Source: Saprospiraceae bacterium
Lineage (GTDB): Bacteria; Bacteroidota; Bacteroidia; Chitinophagales; Saprospiraceae
NCBI GenBank assembly: GCA_013214265.1
Contig: JABSSK010000006.1
Location: forward strand, 1 to 36,066
Reading direction: 5' to 3'
DNA: 36,066 nucleotides
The notes beneath the pieces were generated by a model. The model saw only the letters and a program-made list of their open reading frames with translations, searched no databases and had not been told where the DNA came from. A program made the translations under genes and the position numbers. Position 1 is the stretch's first letter; each line of letters opens with the position of its first letter. This document shows, one piece after another, positions 6,565 through 24,601 of this stretch.

Positions 6565-9500
6565 ATGCAAAAGGTACTCACCCTCTTTTTATCCCTATGG
6601 GTCACTATCAGTATTATGGCTCAAGATAGCCCTCAGTGGATCCGTCATGCGTCAATATCTCCTGATGGAAGTCAGATTGTATTTACGTATAAAGGTGACT
6701 TATATACTGTTGCTTCCAATGGTGGAGAAGCCCATCAGATTACTTTCCATGGAGCTCACGATTACATGGCTACTTGGAGTCCTGATGGCTCTAAAATTGC
6801 CTTTTCATCCAATCGCTATGGTAATTTCGATGTTTTTGTGATGTCTGTAAAAGGTGGAAATGCCACACGCCTCACGTTCCACTCTGCCAATGAAGTACCT
6901 TATGCCTTCTCCCCAGATGGAGAGCAGGTTATGTTTGGTGCTGCTCGTATGGACCTAGCTGAACATCGCCAATACCCAAGGTCTTATTTACCTGAATTAT
7001 ATCAGGTCCCCACATCAGGTGGACGGGTCGATCAGGTATTCACCATTCCTGCCGAATATGTAGCATTATCAGCCGATGGCCAAACTATGCTGTATCATGA
7101 TAAAAAGGGAGGTGAAAATGAATGGCGAAAACACCATACCTCTTCTGTTGCTCGTGACATATGGATGTATACCACATCCGATAATAAGCACCGGATGCTT
7201 ACCTCATTCGAAGGCGAAGACCGCCAGCCCATCTTTAGTGCTGACGAACAAAGCTTTTATTACTTAAGTGAAGCAGCAGGCTCTTTTAATGTATTTAAAA
7301 AAGATATCACCCCAAATAGTGAACCTGTTCAATTAACATCATTTGAACTCCATCCAGTACGTTTTCTGAGCCGAGGAGAAAATAAGTTATGTTTTACTTG
7401 GGATGGTGAGCTTTACACTATGATTGAAGGGCAACAACCCCAAAAGGTAGCTGTAACTATTCGAACACAATCCATTAAAAATAACGATGATATCATAAGT
7501 ATTAATGGCGGTGTACGCGAAATGGCTATCGCTCCTAATGGTAAAGAAATTGCCTTTATTGCCCGCGGTGAAGTATTCGTAACCAGTGCAGATGGTTCAA
7601 TGACTAAGCGTATCACCAACACGCCCGAACAGGAACGGTTTGTACAGTTTTCCCCTGATGGTGAAAAAATAGTTTATGCCAGTGAGCGCAATGGAAAATG
7701 GAGCATCTTCCAAACCAGTAAACAACGTAATGAAGAACCATTCTTTTTTGCGTCCACGCTACTTAACGAAACAGTACTAATAGCTAATGAAGTCGACAAC
7801 TACCTACCTGAGTTTTCCCCTGACGGAAAAAAAATAGCCTATATCAAAGATCGCCGTAATTTGATGGTACGCGATATAGAATCTGGTGACGAAATAACTC
7901 TTCTCAATGCAGATGACTTATACCATATGCGTGATGGTGATAAGTATTTTAAGTGGAGTCCTGATAGTAAATGGCTGCTCATCGACTGGGGTGTTAGCCT
8001 GAGTAATGATGATGTGTTACTGATGGCTGCTGACGGATCACAACGGGTCAATTTAACACAAAGTGGTTATTCAGATTCTGCCCCAATATGGGTTAATAAA
8101 GGAAAACAAATGCTCTGGCTAAGTAACCGAAATGGTTTGAAGAGCTATGCTACAAGTGGTCAGACACAGCGTGACGTATACAGTATGTTTTTCCCTCAGG
8201 AAGCCTGGGATAAATTCAATATGAGTAAGGAAGACTTCGACCTCATGAAAGAAATCGAAAAGGCTAATAAAACAAAAGATAAAAAAGACGATAAAGAGAG
8301 TGAAAAAGCAGAAAAGAAAGACTCTATCTTACATTTTGATTGGAATAATCTGGATGAAAGGGTAGCTCGTCTAACTATTCATTCTTCCAGTCTTGGGGGA
8401 GCTGTTCTATCAAAAGACAATGAAAAGCTGTATTACCTAGCTCGTTTCGAAAAAGGTATGAACCTCTGGGTTACAAATCTCCGTACTAAAGAAACCAAAC
8501 AAGCTATCAAACTCAATACCGGTTTTGGATCCTTAATGTGGGATAAAGACATGAAAAATCTTTATCTATTAAGTGGCGGACGTATCGCAAAAGTTGACCC
8601 TGATAAAGGGCAACGCAAGAGTATTAGCATTAAAGGGGAAATGACTTATGATGCTATTGCTGAAAGGGACTACCTGTTCAACCATGTATGGAATCGAACT
8701 AAGAATGTATTCTACCATTCCAACTTCCATGGTGTCGACTGGAACCAGATGCAAGTCGAATACAAAAAATACTTACCCCATGTGGGTAACTCTTATGAGT
8801 TTGCTGAGCTATTGTCGGAAATGCTTGGGGAACTTAACGTTTCACATGCAGGTGCACGATATAGAAGTACCATGGCAAATGCAGATGCTACTGCAGCCCT
8901 AGGGGTATTTGTAGATTATGATTTTGAAGGTACAGGAATTCGGATAACAGAAATCATAGAAGGTGGTCCTTTGGATAAAGCAAATCTGGATGTAACAGCA
9001 GGTATGATCATTGAAGAAATTGATGGCCAATCGTTATCACCAGATCACGATTACAGTAAGTTCTTGAATCGTAAAGCTGGCCAATTTACGTTACTAACAA
9101 TCCTTAACCCAGAGCATGGTAAACGCCAGCAAATTCGCGTTAAACCCATTACTCTAAATCAAGAGTCACGGCTATTATACGACCGTTGGGTAGAAAAGAA
9201 CCGAGAAGAAGTAGAAAAAGCATCCGACAATCAGCTAGGCTATGTGCATATACCTGGGATGAGTGATGGCCCTTATCGCAGTATCTATGAGGATATGATG
9301 GGTAAATATTTTTCCAAAAAAGGTGTGGTCGTTGATACCCGTTTTAATGGAGGTGGTGATTTAGTTGCTGACCTGGCTATGTTTTTCACTGGTGAACCGT
9401 TCCTCACCTATGCCACCGAAGCCAAAGTAGTGGGCGGAGAACCTACCAGTAGATGGACTAAGCCTACCTTAGCTATGTTCAACGAAGCCAATTATTCGGA

Positions 9501-11760: not shown

Positions 11761-14700
11761 ATGTATAAACATTTACTTCTTACTTTTTTCCTCTTTTTAA
11801 GTTTTACACACATTGCTCAAGCCCAATCCAGCAATGATGAGTGTTCCGGTGCAATTGATATTTCACAAGTAATCGACTTTTGTTCGGAAAAAGAAGCTTT
11901 CAACAATGCAGGTGCTTCTCTTTCGGACGTTGAACCACCAGGCTGTTTTCCCAGTGGAGAAGACTTTCGCGATGTGTGGTTTCGATTTACGGCTATTGCA
12001 TCAGATGTAAATATACGGGTAATTGGAGCTACTTCCCTCAACGCAGGTGGGACCCTGAGAAGTCCGCAACTGGCCATTTATTCAGGATTGTGTTCTGACC
12101 TTACCGAGCTCCAATGTATTTCAGATAATGCTAATAACCATGTTGTCCAAACATTTGAAAATGAGTTGATAATTGGAGAAACCTATTACATTCGTGTTAG
12201 TGCACGTAGTTTGAATACCGGTACTTTCCAATTGTGTATTAATAATTTCAATGCTATTCCGAGTGCATCAAGTGATTGCTCAACCGGAGTTGTACTGTGC
12301 GACAAAAGTCCTTTTACGGTTGATTTTGTTAATAACTTTGGTGCTGTTCGGGACGACATTCCGGGCGTATTTTGTGCTGGCCAGTTCCCTGTAATCGAAG
12401 AGCAGTCAACCTGGTTTAAATGGACCTGCGAACAAGCTGGATCATTAACATTTAGCATCACTCCACTCAATCCAGACGACGATATTGACTGGGCCTTATA
12501 CGAGCTGCCTAGCGGAATAAATGGCTGCAGTAACAAAGACTTGCTGCGGTTTAATATCTCCGGAGAGATCGTTGGCGCACCACTAAGTGATTGGCAAGCA
12601 TGTACGGGTTCAACTGGTCTTCGCGAGGGGGACGACGATGAAGGTGAAGACTGTGGTTGTGACCCTACCGACGATAATTTTTCTAGGTCTGTTGATATGG
12701 TGGAAGGCCGAGTTTATGCCTTAGTCATCATTAATTATAGTATGTCTGGATTTGGATATAATTTGTCCTTTGGTGGTACTGGAACGTTTAAAGGGCCGGA
12801 AGCTAACTTTATAGTTGACCCTAGCATCGACGGGCTATGCGTTGGAGAGCCTATCCGATTTACGGATGCATCTAGCTTCGCTGGTGGCCTAACAGATTGG
12901 GCGTGGAACTTTGGCCCAACTGCACGAACAACCAATACCATAGGAGAAGGACCACACGAAATTATCTTTGACCGCCCAGGTACAAAATCAGTTCTACTAC
13001 GTGTAACCAGTGTTGATGGATGTGTAGTCTCACGGGTAGGTACTATCGAAATAGAATGCTGCGAAAACCACTTTAGCGGATCAGGTTCAGTAACCAATCT
13101 ACTATGTCCTGACCAACCTCTTGGTGCCATTGACTTTAGCATATCTAGTAATTATCCAGTCGAGAGCTATACATGGAGCAACGGTGATTCCACTCAAGAT
13201 ATATCAAGCCTGTTGAATGGCACCTACTCTGTACAGGTAATCGATGAAGCTACCTGCGATTCCACTTTTACATTCCTTATTGATGCACCTGATAGTTTTG
13301 CATTAAATGCTGATATTATTATGCCTACTTGTAATGGTGGAACAGATGGAGCTGTCACCCTTTTCGGTACAGGAGCGACACCTCCTTATCAATTCAGCTT
13401 TAACGGTGGTAACTTTGGAAATACAACCCAATTCAGTAATCTATCTGTAGGCGACTACACCATATCGGTTACGGATGCAAATAACTGTAATTTTGATACT
13501 ATTTTGACCGTAAGTGAGCTGGAACTCCAACTCGATCCTTTTGTAGATGCTATTACACCACCCACATGTAATGGTTTTTCTAACGGAGCCATTCAAGTCA
13601 TTATTTCAAATGGAGAAGGACCTTACCAATTTAACTTCAATGATGGCAGAGGTTTCCAAAACGATAATTCATTGTTGAATATCTCATCCGGAACGTTTGA
13701 AGTAAATGTTTTAGACCAGAATCTTTGCGAAGGAAGTTTTATGTTTAGCGTAGAAGATTTTGCCACCATCGGAGCTGATATCGCTCAGGATAATGTAAGC
13801 TGTTTCGGGTTGATAGATGGTTCCTTATTAGTTGCTGCCACTGGTGGAACAGGTGTTTATACATACAGTTGGACAGATGGCAGCAATAACCCCGATCGAC
13901 TGGACCTTCCTGCCGGTACTTACACCTTACAAATCTCTGATGACAATAATTGTACGTTCGATACGATCTTACAAATCACGCAACCCCCTGAGATACTTAT
14001 TCAGGATATCGATATTTCTGATGCCATATGTTTTGGAGACTCAAATGCGCAGGTCCAGCTTTTAGGCGAAGGAGGCTCTCCGCCGTATCAATATGCAATC
14101 AACAACGGTAGCCTTCAGAACGACAATTTATTTCTAGGTCTGCGGGCTGGTTCCTATGTAGTTCGAATTGAAGACGTAGAAGGTTGTTCCATCACCGACA
14201 CCATTACAGTAAACCAACCCGATCAGTTAATGGTGGATGCTGGAAATGATCAAATTATACGATTAGGAGAAGAAGCTGACCTAAGAGCTATTGCAAGTCT
14301 TCTTCCGGTAACATACAACTGGACACCACTCGAAATCCTGAGTTGCTCGGATTGCTCAAGTCCAATTGCCTTTCCATTAGAAACAACCATTTTCCAAATT
14401 ACCATTGAAGACCTCACCGGTTGTATTGCTATAGATGAGGTCAAAGTGAGTGTGGCTAAGTTCCGCGACTTATACGCTCCTAATGTTTTCTCTCCTAACG
14501 GGGATGGTGATAATGACTTTTTTACACTTTATGGAGGTCCATCTGTCGAGCGCATAGAAAAACTACAAATTTTTGATCGATGGGGTAATTTAATTTACTT
14601 GGGCAATGATTTACCGCCAGGTAGTGAGGGGGAAGTATTAGGTTGGGATGGAACCCACAAAGGGCAAGAGTTATCGCCTGCAGTATTTACCTATGTTGCA

Positions 14701-18409: not shown

Positions 18410-21400
18410 ATGTGGAACATTTGGATCGATACCGGAGGTACATTTACCGACTGTTTTGCCAAGCCACCCCAAGGCACCATGCAAAGATTGAAGGTGCTCA
18501 GTAGTGGGCATTTACGCGGAACCATTACTTATCAGCCGGCACCTAACAAGGTTACCATTAAGCATAACTGGCCCGTTTCAAAAGATATATTCTCCGGATA
18601 TTCATTTGCAATTGAAGGGCACGCCTATGCAATAAATATAAAAAGTTATAGCCATCAGAATCAGACTTTTACATTAGATAGAGATATACCTAAAGGCGTC
18701 ACTGGCTCTGACTTCAGTATTACTGCAGCCGAAGAAGCTCCTATACTAGCCGCTCGTCTTGCGACCCAAACACCCCTAAGTCAAAAATTACCAACCATAA
18801 CCATGCGGCTGGGGTCTACCCGGGGTACGAATGCTTTATTGGAAAGAAAGGGTGCTAAAACCTTATTACTTATTACAGAAGGCTTTAAAGACTTAATGTA
18901 TATAGGTACACAGCAACGGCCTAATCTGTTTGAAATCGATATTCCTGAACCAAATGTGCTGTATGATGATGTTTTGGAAGTACCCGAAAGACTAGACGCC
19001 TCTGGTAATGTTATCATTCCTCTTACCAGTCTTTTTCTGGAAAACTGCATACAATACGTTAAGCAAAAAGGCTATGAATCCGTAGCTATAGTACTACTCC
19101 ATGCTTACCGAAACCCCATGCATGAACAAAGGATAGCTGAAGCGCTTGAACAGGCCGGAGTCAAATATATTTCAACGTCGCAAGCACTAAGTCCCACTAT
19201 TAAACTACTTCCCAGAGCTAGGACTACTTTAGTCAATGCTTATCTAAAGCCGATCATCCACGAATACCTCGGTAGTATCGCCCAGACGATAGGCGCCGAA
19301 AATGGAACAGGTAAACTACTGGTTATGACCAGTTCGGGTGGTTTAGTACCACACGCAAACTTTCAGCCAAAAGACAGCTTATTGAGTGGGCCGGCTGGTG
19401 GAGTAGTTGGTGCTGCTACAATCGGACACCAAATCGGTCTACATAAATTATTAACCTTAGATATGGGGGGTACCAGTACAGACACAGCCCGCTATGATCA
19501 AATCTACGACTACCAATTTCATACAACCATCGATAATATTGAAATGAATAGTCCTGCTCTGGCTATTGAAACCGTCGCTGCCGGTGGAGGATCTATTTGC
19601 TGGTTTGATGGCCAAAAGCTTCAAGTAGGCCCACATTCAGCTGGAGCCCAGCCTGGCCCAGCAGCTTATGGAGCAGGAGGTCCTCTAACCATTACTGATG
19701 TCAACCTATTGCTCGGAAAAATGCAACCCGAAAGGATGAGTATTCCACTTCGGCCAGAGCGATCAAGAGAAGCTCTAGAAAGACTTCGCCAACAAGTCGA
19801 AAAGAAAACAGGTCACAATTACGAACCAAAAGAAATTTTGGAAGGACTCGAAGCAATAGCAAATGAAAAAATGGCCGAAGCCATCCGTAGAATATCTGTT
19901 GCCAAAGGCTTTAACCCTTCAGAATATGCCCTCTTGGCCTTCGGGGGAGCTGGTGGGTTGCATGCTGCTCAGGTAGCAGAGCTACTCCAGATAAAAACCT
20001 TGATACTTCCTTTTGATGGAGGTCTATTAAGTGCCTACGGTATCGGTCATGCCGAAATAGAGCGTCTGGTTGAAATTCAAGTTCTTCAGAACTTACATGA
20101 TCCCAATTTAGACCTCGAATTGCTTTTGCAGAATGCATCAAAAACAGCTCAAAATAAATTATTAGATGAAGGATTCACCCACGCAGAAATATTCATTCGC
20201 CAGAAGCTTTTGTTCCTGCGTTTTGCTGGTCAGAACGCCACTTTAGAAATTGACTACACAGCTCCCTCCAATACTCCGGACACATTATTCAAAGAAGCCT
20301 ATATTCAGCTTTTTGGATACTACCCGCCAAACCGAACAATAGAACTAGAAAGTGTTCGTGTCATTGCCTCTAGTAAATCTGAAATCACACAACCCAATAC
20401 AAACCACCCTAAAAAGAATCACCTTGACCTACATGCTTCGGATAACCAATACCCAAATGTGTATTGGCCCGATTTAAGTGTAGGCAACTCATTTTCGGGT
20501 CCAGCCCTTATACTTAGTGATCACTCTAGTTTCTTTCTGCCTCGTGACTGGTCGGTTCTAACCTACCCCGAAAGGAACCTGATTGTACAAAAAGAAATAC
20601 AATCTGATCGAAAAGAAATAGCGGAGAAAGAAGCTATTGAACTGGAACTTTTCACCAACCGCTTCATGAGTATTGCGGAGGATATGGGCGCACAACTGCA
20701 ACGGACCGCCTTTTCTGTGAATGTAAAAGAGCGACTTGATTTTTCGTGTGCAATCCTGAACCCTAAAGCTGAGCTTTTGGTCAATGCTCCCCATATACCT
20801 GTTCATCTGGGGAGCTTGGGTATCTGTGCACGCCTCTGTTTGGAAGTACTTCCTTTACAACCTGGCGATGTTATTCTCACCAATCATCCAAAGTATGGTG
20901 GTTCTCACTTACCTGATGTAACTATACTCATGGGCACGTACACCGATCAAGGCGAGCTCATTGGTTACCTTATCAATCGAGCTCATCATGCTGAAATTGG
21001 AGGTAAACGCCCGGGGTCTATGCCTCCTGATGCCCGTACTCTGGCAGAAGAAGGGGTAGCCTTTTCTCCCGTATATCTGGTAAAAGATGGCTCCGTAAGA
21101 TGGGCTGAAATTGAAGCTATACTAAAAAGTGGAGATTACCCTACCCGATCAATCGCCGAAAATATAGCTGACCTAAGAGCCGCTCTAGCTAGCCTTCGTT
21201 ATGGGGCGGAAGCCCTAAAAAACTTGGTACAACTGCATAGCCTCGATAAAGTGCACAAGTACATGAAACGAGTACAGCAAACAGCCAGTACAACTTTAGA
21301 AGAGGGACTTAAAGCTTATTTAGGAAATGTATTTAGAGCAGAAGAATACCTTGATGATGGTCATCGATTAGCTGTTTGCATTGACTTTCGTCAAAAACCC

Positions 21401-22168
21401 TATATTTTTGACTTTTCAGGTACAGCAAAAGCTCATCCTTTTAACCTTAACGCCAATATATCCATCGTCTACAGTGCGGTACTTTATGTTTTACGTTTAC
21501 TCTGTACCAAACCTGTCCCTTTGAATGAAGGCTTAATGGCGTCGATACGCATCCGCGTTCCACCTTCTTTATTACATCCTCAATTTGAGGATGACCCAAA
21601 TGAATGTCCAGCGGTTGTAGGTGGCAATACGGAAGTAAGCCAGCGGTTGGTAGATACGCTGCTAAAGGCACTTTCTCTGGTAGCTTGTTCTCAAGGAACC
21701 ATGAATAACTTGTTATTCGGAAATGAACATTTCGGCTACTATGAAACTATTGGAGGTGGTACAGGTGCCGGAGATGGTTTCAATGGCCGGTCCGGTGTTC
21801 ATCAACATATGACAAATACCAGAATGACCGATCCGGAAGAACTTGAGCTGAAATACCCTGTAAGATTATGGGAATTTGGACTGCGTCTCAATTCTGGAGG
21901 CGATGGGCAGTGGAAAGGAGGGAACGGGATTATTCGCGAACTCGAGTTTCTGGAGCCCGTCGACTTTACCCTCATTAGCCAGCACAGAATTGTAGCACCC
22001 TATGGTATGAAAGGGGGAGAAAATGGAATGCCAGGACAGCAATGGCTACAAAAAAAGAATGGTACAATCGAACCAATAAAAGGAATAACAGACCAGTCAT
22101 TATCCTCAGGTGATCGAATTCGCCTTGAAACCCCCGGAGGGGGTGGGTACGGGAAAAAAGAATCATAA
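18410..22168 (+). CDS. Fused hydantoinase A/B (5-oxoprolinase-like) protein
   Basis: 1252 aa; HyuA part IDTGGTFTDCFAKP, TMRLGSTRGTNALLERKGAKTLLLITEGFKDLMYIGTQQRP, LTLDMGGTSTDTARYD; HyuB part MSIAEDMGAQLQRTAFSVNVKERLDFSCAILNPKAELLVNAPHIPVHLGSLG, LRLNSGGDGQWKGGNGIIRELEFLEP, ETPGGGGYG. Confidence 0.95.
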   Translation: MWNIWIDTGGTFTDCFAKPPQGTMQRLKVLSSGHLRGTITYQPAPNKVTIKHNWPVSKDIFSGYSFAIEGHAYAINIKSYSHQNQTFTLDRDIPKGVTGSDFSITAAEEAPILAARLATQTPLSQKLPTITMRLGSTRGTNALLERKGAKTLLLITEGFKDLMYIGTQQRPNLFEIDIPEPNVLYDDVLEVPERLDASGNVIIPLTSLFLENCIQYVKQKGYESVAIVLLHAYRNPMHEQRIAEALEQAGVKYISTSQALSPTIKLLPRARTTLVNAYLKPIIHEYLGSIAQTIGAENGTGKLLVMTSSGGLVPHANFQPKDSLLSGPAGGVVGAATIGHQIGLHKLLTLDMGGTSTDTARYDQIYDYQFHTTIDNIEMNSPALAIETVAAGGGSICWFDGQKLQVGPHSAGAQPGPAAYGAGGPLTITDVNLLLGKMQPERMSIPLRPERSREALERLRQQVEKKTGHNYEPKEILEGLEAIANEKMAEAIRRISVAKGFNPSEYALLAFGGAGGLHAAQVAELLQIKTLILPFDGGLLSAYGIGHAEIERLVEIQVLQNLHDPNLDLELLLQNASKTAQNKLLDEGFTHAEIFIRQKLLFLRFAGQNATLEIDYTAPSNTPDTLFKEAYIQLFGYYPPNRTIELESVRVIASSKSEITQPNTNHPKKNHLDLHASDNQYPNVYWPDLSVGNSFSGPALILSDHSSFFLPRDWSVLTYPERNLIVQKEIQSDRKEIAEKEAIELELFTNRFMSIAEDMGAQLQRTAFSVNVKERLDFSCAILNPKAELLVNAPHIPVHLGSLGICARLCLEVLPLQPGDVILTNHPKYGGSHLPDVTILMGTYTDQGELIGYLINRAHHAEIGGKRPGSMPPDARTLAEEGVAFSPVYLVKDGSVRWAEIEAILKSGDYPTRSIAENIADLRAALASLRYGAEALKNLVQLHSLDKVHKYMKRVQQTASTTLEEGLKAYLGNVFRAEEYLDDGHRLAVCIDFRQKPYIFDFSGTAKAHPFNLNANISIVYSAVLYVLRLLCTKPVPLNEGLMASIRIRVPPSLLHPQFEDDPNECPAVVGGNTEVSQRLVDTLLKALSLVACSQGTMNNLLFGNEHFGYYETIGGGTGAGDGFNGRSGVHQHMTNTRMTDPEELELKYPVRLWEFGLRLNSGGDGQWKGGNGIIRELEFLEPVDFTLISQHRIVAPYGMKGGENGMPGQQWLQKKNGTIEPIKGITDQSLSSGDRIRLETPGGGGYGKKES

Positions 22169-22286
22169 AAACTAGGTTAACTCCCTGATTTTGAGTATAC
22201 TTTTACACGTTTTAAACAACCAATGTGTATTAAAACTAACAATCAAAATAGAAGATAACACACTGAAAAAAAGCTACTTATCATGA

Positions 22287-22363
22287 TTTTCCACAATTTT
22301 ATATTGATTTAATGTGGAAAACTATACAAACGTCTGCTTATAAAGGCTCTCTGGTGTGGATAA
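22287..22363. promoter_or_regulatory. Cluster of three consensus DnaA boxes (TTWTNCACA), two forming an inverted repeat
   Basis: TTTTCCACA at 22287-22295 (+), TGTGGAAAA at 22313-22321 (reverse complement TTTTCCACA), TGTGGATAA at 22355-22363 (reverse complement TTATCCACA), all in an AT-rich convergent intergenic gap. Confidence 0.5.
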
Positions 22364-22382
22364 GCGATACGATTAACCCAGA

Positions 22383-23120
22383 TCAAGGATTTTTCGTTGG
22401 CTCATCAGAAGTAACCGCATGCTCTTGATCTTTACCAGCAAAATAGTTTTCGAGCTCCGTTAATGTTTCCGCTTCGGTAGTAATATCACGAATGACTTTA
22501 CCATGTTCCAGAACAACGATACGTTTGCATACTTCCGTAATATGGGTTAGATCATGACTCGAAATCAGGACCGTCATATCACTAGGTAAATCCTTAATCA
22601 GTTGTTTCAATTGTATTTGTGAGCTTGGATCCAAATTAGCGAAAGGCTCATCGAGTACGAGAAGTTCCGGTTGTCCAATCAAGGCGGCAGCGATACCCAC
22701 CTTCTTCTGGTTACCCTTAGATAAGTCTCGGATATATTTCTTTTTTTCCAAAATCTCACCATGGAAGAAATCCGAAAATTTACTTAAGCGTTCTTCCAGT
22801 TCTCCTGTATTAACAGCGTATAATTGGGCAACAAACTCAAAGTATTCCTGAGGTGTTAAAAAGCCAATTAGAAAACTCTCGTCCAGATAGGCACCCGTGT
22901 AAGGTTTCCAATGTTCAGAGCGTCCTACAGGTTTACCCTTCGATAAAACTTCACCGGAGCTAGGCTGAATCAGATCCATGATCAAACTAAACAAAGTGGT
23001 TTTACCTGCCCCGTTATTTCCTACCAGCCCAAAACTCTCTCCATCAGAAATGGATAAAGAAGGCACATCCAGTACAGAAACCCCTTTATACGATTTTGAT
23101 AATTTTTGTATTGACAGCAT
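22383..23120 (-). CDS. ABC transporter ATP-binding protein
   Basis: Walker A GLVGNNGAGKTTLFS, signature LSKGNQKKVGIAAALIG, Walker B LLVLDEPFANLD, H-loop ISSHDLTHI. Confidence 0.95.
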   Translation of the reverse strand: MLSIQKLSKSYKGVSVLDVPSLSISDGESFGLVGNNGAGKTTLFSLIMDLIQPSSGEVLSKGKPVGRSEHWKPYTGAYLDESFLIGFLTPQEYFEFVAQLYAVNTGELEERLSKFSDFFHGEILEKKKYIRDLSKGNQKKVGIAAALIGQPELLVLDEPFANLDPSSQIQLKQLIKDLPSDMTVLISSHDLTHITEVCKRIVVLEHGKVIRDITTEAETLTELENYFAGKDQEHAVTSDEPTKNP

Positions 23121-23128
23121 ATCTTTTT

Positions 23129-24601
23129 TTATTTCGATTTAAATCCAGCACTCATGATGTACTTACGTTTGTGAAACTGGTCTACTATCCGATCCATCAA
23201 GTAATTTTTTAGTACAATTCCAATAATCCCCAGAATAGCCAGCATAGCCAAGCCTACATATTTATTAAAAAAAATTCCAAAAGGTGCATAAATAACCATC
23301 GGAATAATTAAAAGTGGTACCAACATCACAAATTGATTCGCTCCCACACCTTCGTAGTTAAAAAAGGCCCCTTTAGTGAGTTCCACGCGCTTAACGTTAT
23401 ACGTAGCCGCATACATCAGCAGAAATGAGTTTATCCCTAAATTGAAAAGTGCACAAGCCACAAAAGCTAATGGCAGGTTAATATCGAGAAAACCATAAGC
23501 CAAAGAAAGAAGTGTGAATAAACCTGTGAAAAAAGCAAAGAGAAGATATTTAGCCTCAAAATATTCACGAATACTAAAATTACGAGTCAGCATGAAATCA
23601 AAAAACGTACTCTCCCAAGAAAACATAAACTGCCCATACTGAATCATGAGGAAACCCGAAATAAATATGCCTAAAAAGATTGCAGTTAGAAATGAAGATT
23701 GCAGTACTTCTGCAAATAACAATGGGTATGCAATGAAAATTAAGCCAACTATCATCATAGTACGTGGGCGTTTGTTGCGCCAAATGAGCTTGAGGTCTAA
23801 ACGCATCAAGTCACCCAAATTACCAAATCTGTCTAACCATGTAAATTGATTTAAGCTGACCGCTTCCGACCGATTGCTGACAAAAGCGTCCACATAGGCA
23901 TACTTTCGGAACCTTTGGTATATCATAATATACATTAAGGTAGCTACACCTCCCGGAATAATTAACCAAACTGGAGCAACCACCACCTTACCGAGTGCAA
24001 GCACGAAGGCATCAGAAAATCCTATTATATTTTCTATATCCAGATAAAAAATGCTTCCAATAACCACCAATAAGGCTAATATTAGTGCCGGCTTAATGCT
24101 AAACATTCTTTTCAACCAGAATACTAAATAGTGGTTAGCAATTACTATCCATACAAAAAACGTCAACCAAGCCAAGCCACCACCTAATCCAAATTCAGGT
24201 ATCACCACCTTTATCATAATCGGAATACCAAGCAATAGTGGTAACAAATTGAAAAAGTTGGGTAATGATCGAATCAGAATAAAATGAAATACCTTTCTAC
24301 GATCAATTGGCATGACCAGTAATGGCCGGATAGCCAATAAAGGAAAGGATTGTAGAAAAAATCTTAGGAGCAAATCTGACAGAAAGTAATAGCAGATTAA
24401 TTCATTAATAGATACAAAGACCGATACAGAATCGCTAGCCGAGTCTCCACGAATAATTTCAGGAAGGAATATGGCAAGTGCTAGTACATTGACTAACATA
24501 TACAGGGCAAAAAACGCCAAAATCAATGTGATAGCCAGATCTTTCCCTGAGAATGCTGATCTAATCCGCGATTTCCATTCATTGCGTAAAAGTGCTAGCA
24601 T
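23129..24601 (-). CDS. ABC transporter permease, DUF5687-like membrane protein
   Basis: Polytopic; MLALLRNEWKSRIRSAFSGKDLAITLILAFFALYMLVN..., 8 nt upstream of the ABC ATPase. ORF track extends to 24721, but the first 40 residues look untranslated; ATG at 24601 preferred. Confidence 0.8.
   Translation of the reverse strand: MLALLRNEWKSRIRSAFSGKDLAITLILAFFALYMLVNVLALAIFLPEIIRGDSASDSVSVFVSINELICYYFLSDLLLRFFLQSFPLLAIRPLLVMPIDRRKVFHFILIRSLPNFFNLLPLLLGIPIMIKVVIPEFGLGGGLAWLTFFVWIVIANHYLVFWLKRMFSIKPALILALLVVIGSIFYLDIENIIGFSDAFVLALGKVVVAPVWLIIPGGVATLMYIMIYQRFRKYAYVDAFVSNRSEAVSLNQFTWLDRFGNLGDLMRLDLKLIWRNKRPRTMMIVGLIFIAYPLLFAEVLQSSFLTAIFLGIFISGFLMIQYGQFMFSWESTFFDFMLTRNFSIREYFEAKYLLFAFFTGLFTLLSLAYGFLDINLPLAFVACALFNLGINSFLLMYAATYNVKRVELTKGAFFNYEGVGANQFVMLVPLLIIPMVIYAPFGIFFNKYVGLAMLAILGIIGIVLKNYLMDRIVDQFHKRKYIMSAGFKSK

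Follow-up and report, generated by a model that had tools for sequence, protein, structure and literature searches.

DnaA boxes in a convergent intergenic gap

The window, that is, the whole stretch of DNA analysed (36,066 nucleotides), is the entire contig C556 of the Saprospiraceae genome G000, a fragmented assembly of 5.07 Mb in 676 contigs with a completeness of 88.6%; both a T9SS type B sorting domain and the relatives located through the ABC protein point to Bacteroidota. Two convergent genes in this window enclose an intergenic gap of 214 bp with 69% AT (22169-22382), and the minus-strand genes to the right of the gap encode DUF5687, PolA, two DUF3078 proteins, a channel protein and a sigma factor. 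The initial annotation had also placed an rRNA operon to the right of the gap, but Rfam at gathering cut-offs found none anywhere in the window. The features that concern us here are the following:

18410-22168, plus strand: left flanking gene, hydantoinase/oxoprolinase family protein; its 3' end abuts the gap
22201-22209, plus strand: DnaA box with one mismatch, TTTTACACG
22210-22218, plus strand: DnaA box with one mismatch, TTTTAAACA
22224-22232, minus strand: DnaA box with one mismatch, TAATACACA, a weaker match also given as TGTGTATTA
22287-22295, plus strand: DnaA-box 9-mer TTTTCCACA, exact TTWTNCACA, left arm of a 9-bp inverted repeat
22313-22321, minus strand: DnaA-box 9-mer TTTTCCACA, exact TTWTNCACA, right arm of the inverted repeat
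22355-22363, minus strand: DnaA-box 9-mer TTATCCACA, exact TTWTNCACA
22383-23120, minus strand: right flanking gene, ABC transporter ATPase; its 3' end abuts the gap
23513-23533, minus strand: tandem double box TTTTTCACA-GGT-TTATTCACA with 3-bp spacing, within the DUF5687 permease gene

The three exact boxes in the gap span 77 bp, with 17 and 33 bp between them, and the first two form a perfect 9-bp inverted repeat around the 17-nt spacer ATTTTATATTGATTTAA; in both respects the earlier description was confirmed (22287 on the plus strand, 22313 and 22355 on the minus strand). Weaker matches nearby, which it had also reported, do exist, but they lie at 22201-22209 and 22224-22232 and not where they had been placed. 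Its statement that only isolated matches occur elsewhere did not hold: the window contains seven exact boxes and not four, the box at 11802 and the tandem pair at 23513/23525 having been overlooked. Five of these seven fall within 1.25 kb (the trio in the gap and the double box 1.2 kb away).

We compared the number of boxes with that expected from composition. The three exact boxes in the gap stand against a mean of 0.056 in dinucleotide shuffles, none of 1000 shuffles reached three, and the six boxes with at most one mismatch compare with a shuffle mean of 0.94. Among 279 intergenic gaps (∼0.61 Mb of sampled G000 sequence) the gap ranked second for boxes, after the putative origin gap on contig C390 described below. 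The counts of clusters come from pattern searches and from the sampled contigs, some of which were chosen for carrying boxes. Genome-wide, TTWTCCACA is not enriched in G000 (137 occurrences versus 149 for the reversed control). From this genome-wide count, three TTWTCCACA within 77 bp would be expected ∼3e-4 times per genome, a rough uniform Poisson estimate that is perhaps several-fold too low because the density of boxes is higher in intergenic DNA. G000 has three strict doublets in which two boxes on one strand are 2-3 bp apart, and the pair at 23513/23525 is the sole one outside the ctaA origin region. A further box pair in G000, on contig C20, was discarded as loose, with one box close to the end of a coding frame.

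Comparison with relatives and the nature of the cluster

Relatives within the family were located via matches to the ABC protein, and the syntenic comparison of the gap covers one of them, G001, the only relative of the same genus, which has the same order of oxoprolinase gene, gap, ABC gene and DUF5687 gene (79% identity for the ABC protein and about 74% for DUF5687). The gaps of the two genomes are homologous (alignment score 93.5 versus 63 ± 7 for shuffles), and none of the three exact boxes (0/3) has an exact copy in the G001 gap. Six of the nine bases of 22287-22295 fall in an alignment gap, the bases aligned to 22313-22321 read TTTACCACA, and those aligned to 22355-22363 read TTTTCCACC and lie within a G001 terminator hairpin; the stretch aligned to 22224-22232 holds an exact box, TTTTTCACA. 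These remnants match no better than in a neutral-decay simulation. We had considered five box-like positions that line up between the two gaps as a sign of conservation, and rejected them because the simulation reproduces the line-up. The alignment to related genomes that the initial annotation had suggested finds the boxes unconserved in the one syntenic relative. The double box at 23513-23533 is likewise not conserved in the DUF5687 gene of G001, and a convergent box pair near the ABC gene was found in none of the 18 further relatives with a good ABC match and listed box pairs (G002, G005, G014, G021 and 14 more).

The G001 gap itself contains one exact box; boxes with up to one mismatch number five there, compared to 1.15 expected (p=0.007). 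This near-box enrichment could reflect weak selection for DnaA binding, and it is the sole hint of such selection. G001 has a three-box cluster of its own in a different intergenic gap, just after an FGE-sulfatase gene (locus L060 9412-9457, contig C226 of G001), and therefore clusters away from the origin come and go within the genus. The last two boxes of that G001 cluster form a perfect hairpin, TTTTCCACAG-TTTAC-CTGTGGAAAA.

We favour the reading, with a probability of roughly 0.55, that the gap holds a minor, lineage-specific extra-origin DnaA-box cluster on a replichore arm. DnaA would be able to bind the boxes, which would take up a little initiator protein by passive titration at most, while the cluster presumably starts no replication and regulates neither flanking gene; nothing in it points to a conserved dedicated function. 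The excess of boxes over composition counts for this reading, as do the skew of like sign on both sides of the gap, the skew switch on C390 with its counterparts at ctaA in relatives, the degraded boxes in the homologous G001 gap, the lack of box pairs beside the ABC gene in the 18 further relatives and the separate cluster of G001; the near-box enrichment in G001 and the strict tandem double box 1.2 kb from the gap count against it. An operator role for the flanking genes is excluded because both genes end in the gap; with both 3' ends facing it, a DnaA-regulated promoter of either gene was ruled out, and the DnaA-regulated site that had been listed among the candidates falls for these genes. 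The mechanisms that remain would be passive DnaA binding or chance. The titration site, another of the original candidates, survives as a predicted passive uptake of DnaA, but the exact boxes and their spacing are unconserved in G001. In E. coli, a titration role of chromosomal boxes in general has recently been supported (PMC12371093). By itself, the gap cluster matters little, being extra-origin and in one fragmented genome.

It is considerably less probable that the 9-mers cluster by chance in AT-rich non-coding DNA under weak constraint, and that DnaA does not functionally bind them. The absence of genome-wide enrichment of TTWTCCACA agrees with chance, as does the retention of boxes in G001 at no more than the neutral expectation, and a coding region on contig C115 also contains three grouped boxes. 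In addition, E. coli DnaA in vivo mainly occupies double boxes 2-3 bp apart (PMC11317965), and the 17- and 33-nt spacings in the gap differ from this preference; the pair at 23513/23525 does have the tandem 3-bp geometry of the E. coli double boxes but, unlike them, lies in a coding gene and is unconserved in G001. Against chance stand the failure of any of the 1000 gap shuffles to reach three boxes and the rarity of a triple within 77 bp under the rough Poisson estimate.

A dedicated datA- or DARS-like locus, which would sequester DnaA or alter its nucleotide state and so time initiation, is unlikely. datA and the DARS loci of E. coli carry three to six DnaA boxes, which are conserved among strains; an IHF site accompanies datA and DARS2, and in datA, with five boxes and an IHF site, the spacing is required (PMC4585315). 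Like datA, DARS1 and DARS2, the gap has several DnaA boxes in non-coding DNA away from oriC; its three exact boxes form an extra-origin intergenic cluster that resembles the DARS1 core, five exact boxes lie within 1.25 kb, and the syntenic G001 gap is also enriched in box-like sites. Unlike E. coli datA, the gap has three boxes and no match to the IHF consensus, its boxes and spacing are unconserved in the one relative compared (G001), and no link to the ABC gene was seen in the 18 further relatives. The exact IHF consensus WATCAANNNNTTR is absent from the gap, which contains one site with a single mismatch (22178-22190), although this is the E. coli consensus and may not transfer to Bacteroidota; with the same consensus, and so with limited force in Bacteroidota, IHF-like matches in the window showed no excess over chance. 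An IHF-associated datA was rejected on the lack of an exact IHF consensus, and we classed the gap as a minor extra-origin cluster rather than as a member of the datA kind because neither the conservation nor the IHF site of datA was found. A dedicated datA-like role of the gap is thus possible but unsupported. It is very improbable that the gap cluster and the double box 1.2 kb off would together form a datA-like DnaA-sequestering locus that helps to time the ctaA-linked origin in this Bacteroidota lineage.

Very unlikely, too, is an RNA 3'-end hairpin between the convergent genes, with an inverted repeat that spells DnaA boxes by coincidence. Compared with shuffles, the inverted repeat folds more stably (−11 kcal/mol on the minus strand, z −2.96), and in the G001 gap an A-tract and a T-tract border a strong hairpin (−23.7 kcal/mol, z −6.1). 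However, in G000 neither arm is followed by a T-tract, the loop is 17 nt long, and the third box is left unexplained. A search of the gap for an intrinsic terminator (a GC-rich stem followed by a T-tract) found no terminator-like site, the inverted repeat having a modest hairpin potential, and we discarded the terminator reading for want of such a site and of a T-tract.

Strand composition and the replication origin

That the gap is the chromosomal replication origin is extremely improbable: an AT-rich intergenic gap with a box cluster speaks for it, but the skew does not switch there, and a skew switch with a DnaA-box-rich region is found instead at ctaA on contig C390 and recurs across the family. 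Since gene direction biases raw skew, skew was taken at fourfold-degenerate sites for each gene strand separately. Plus-strand genes had a skew of −0.28 to the left of the gap and −0.39 to the right, and minus-strand genes −0.15 and −0.20, so that both sides have the same sign and the change at the gap is not significant (p 0.48 and 0.51). An origin at 22.3 kb that sends forks in both directions should reverse the sign of the skew. The cumulative skew falls on through the gap as far as 33.7 kb, and the strand bias of G000 is strong, with sampled contigs ranging from −0.30 to +0.23 (mean over the two gene strands).

On C390 (locus L194), the whole-base skew changes from −0.096 to +0.115. Its cumulative curve is lowest at 7431, inside a divergent gap of 798 bp with 70% AT (7221-8018) that separates ctaA (COX15/CtaA family) from an SRAP gene; at fourfold sites the change is significant on each gene strand (p 2.5e-4 and 1.6e-4). 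Exact boxes number four in this gap, and boxes with up to one mismatch 14, compared to a shuffle mean of 4.1; two strict same-strand double boxes lie just 3' of ctaA and inside ctaA, respectively. From the skew of like sign at the window's gap, the switch and the boxes on C390 and the recurrence of this layout at ctaA in relatives, we conclude that the predicted oriC of G000 lies on C390 beside ctaA and not in the window. On the contigs sampled, the GC-skew analysis proposed at the outset thus returned a cumulative minimum on C390 and none at the gap, and the oriC candidate was rejected; the doubt that the initial annotation had itself raised against oriC was sound, but its premise of an rRNA operon was not. 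Like the window's gap, the ctaA-linked region is intergenic and AT-rich and contains TTWTNCACA boxes; it differs from that gap in the skew switch and in its denser, family-conserved boxes.

Does this arrangement extend to the family? We examined 28 ctaA loci, G000 among them; the region concerned is 6138-8018 of L194 in G000, and the ctaA loci bear the numbers L214-L243. At least two boxes were present in the 700 bp upstream of ctaA in 17 of the 28 loci, at least one box lay inside ctaA in 19, and at least one within 60 bp of the ctaA 3' end in 11, several of these being a tandem pair at matching positions. It is thus the ctaA loci, and not the counterpart of the window's gap, that keep the boxes in relatives. 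Skew at fourfold sites climbs across ctaA in a common direction in G000, G007, G015, G017, G024 and G031, each with p<0.05 for one gene strand or both; in the long loci of G002, G003, G019 and G032 no change across ctaA was significant. Judged from these boxes and skews, the replication origin of the family is likely to lie beside ctaA. The neighbourhood of dnaA (contig C36) was rejected as the origin, the single exact box near dnaA being located within the gene. In Bacteroidota, as in G000, the origin need not adjoin dnaA. Among the relatives, G023 (L071) has as many as 32 boxes in 13 kb.

A DnaA-box element upstream of ribonucleotide reductase

The follow-up of the gap cluster placed the likely family origin at ctaA and also exposed a DnaA-box element upstream of ribonucleotide reductase (RNR) genes; these two matter more than the gap cluster, and together they provide testable anchors for replication control in Bacteroidota. 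The element is a conserved stretch of ∼108 bp in which inverted DnaA boxes surround a core resembling TTGATTATCAG; many family members have it upstream of nrdB (L061, L063-L066, L080-L087 and L149-L155). It is intergenic, usually in the order corA, element, nrdB; in G029 it lies upstream of an RNR large-chain gene, and in G027 its neighbour is a SpoIIE-family gene. Held-out genomes are recovered by a sequence profile of the element with E-values down to 3.6e-15, and this profile (R1) does not single out the gap of the window (genome-wide E 0.36). The corA/nrdB cluster had been a candidate for the family origin, but its flanks have no clear skew switch whereas ctaA has one, and it was reclassed as a separate element. 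Possibly, it serves a control of dNTP supply by DnaA.

A class I nrdB query gave no match in G000 or in G001, which may reflect absence or assembly gaps. In many loci (for example L062, L063, L066, L080, L081 and L089) a second conserved motif near TTAATTTAGTGYTAACA is seen on the nrdB side, after the last box pair. The best G001 match of the RNR-element profile is L187 (contig C70 of G001), where positions 2288-2345, in an intergenic stretch with a DinB-family gene on one side and an M16 peptidase gene on the other, carry TTATACACA followed by TTATCCACA-AAA-TGTGCATAA.
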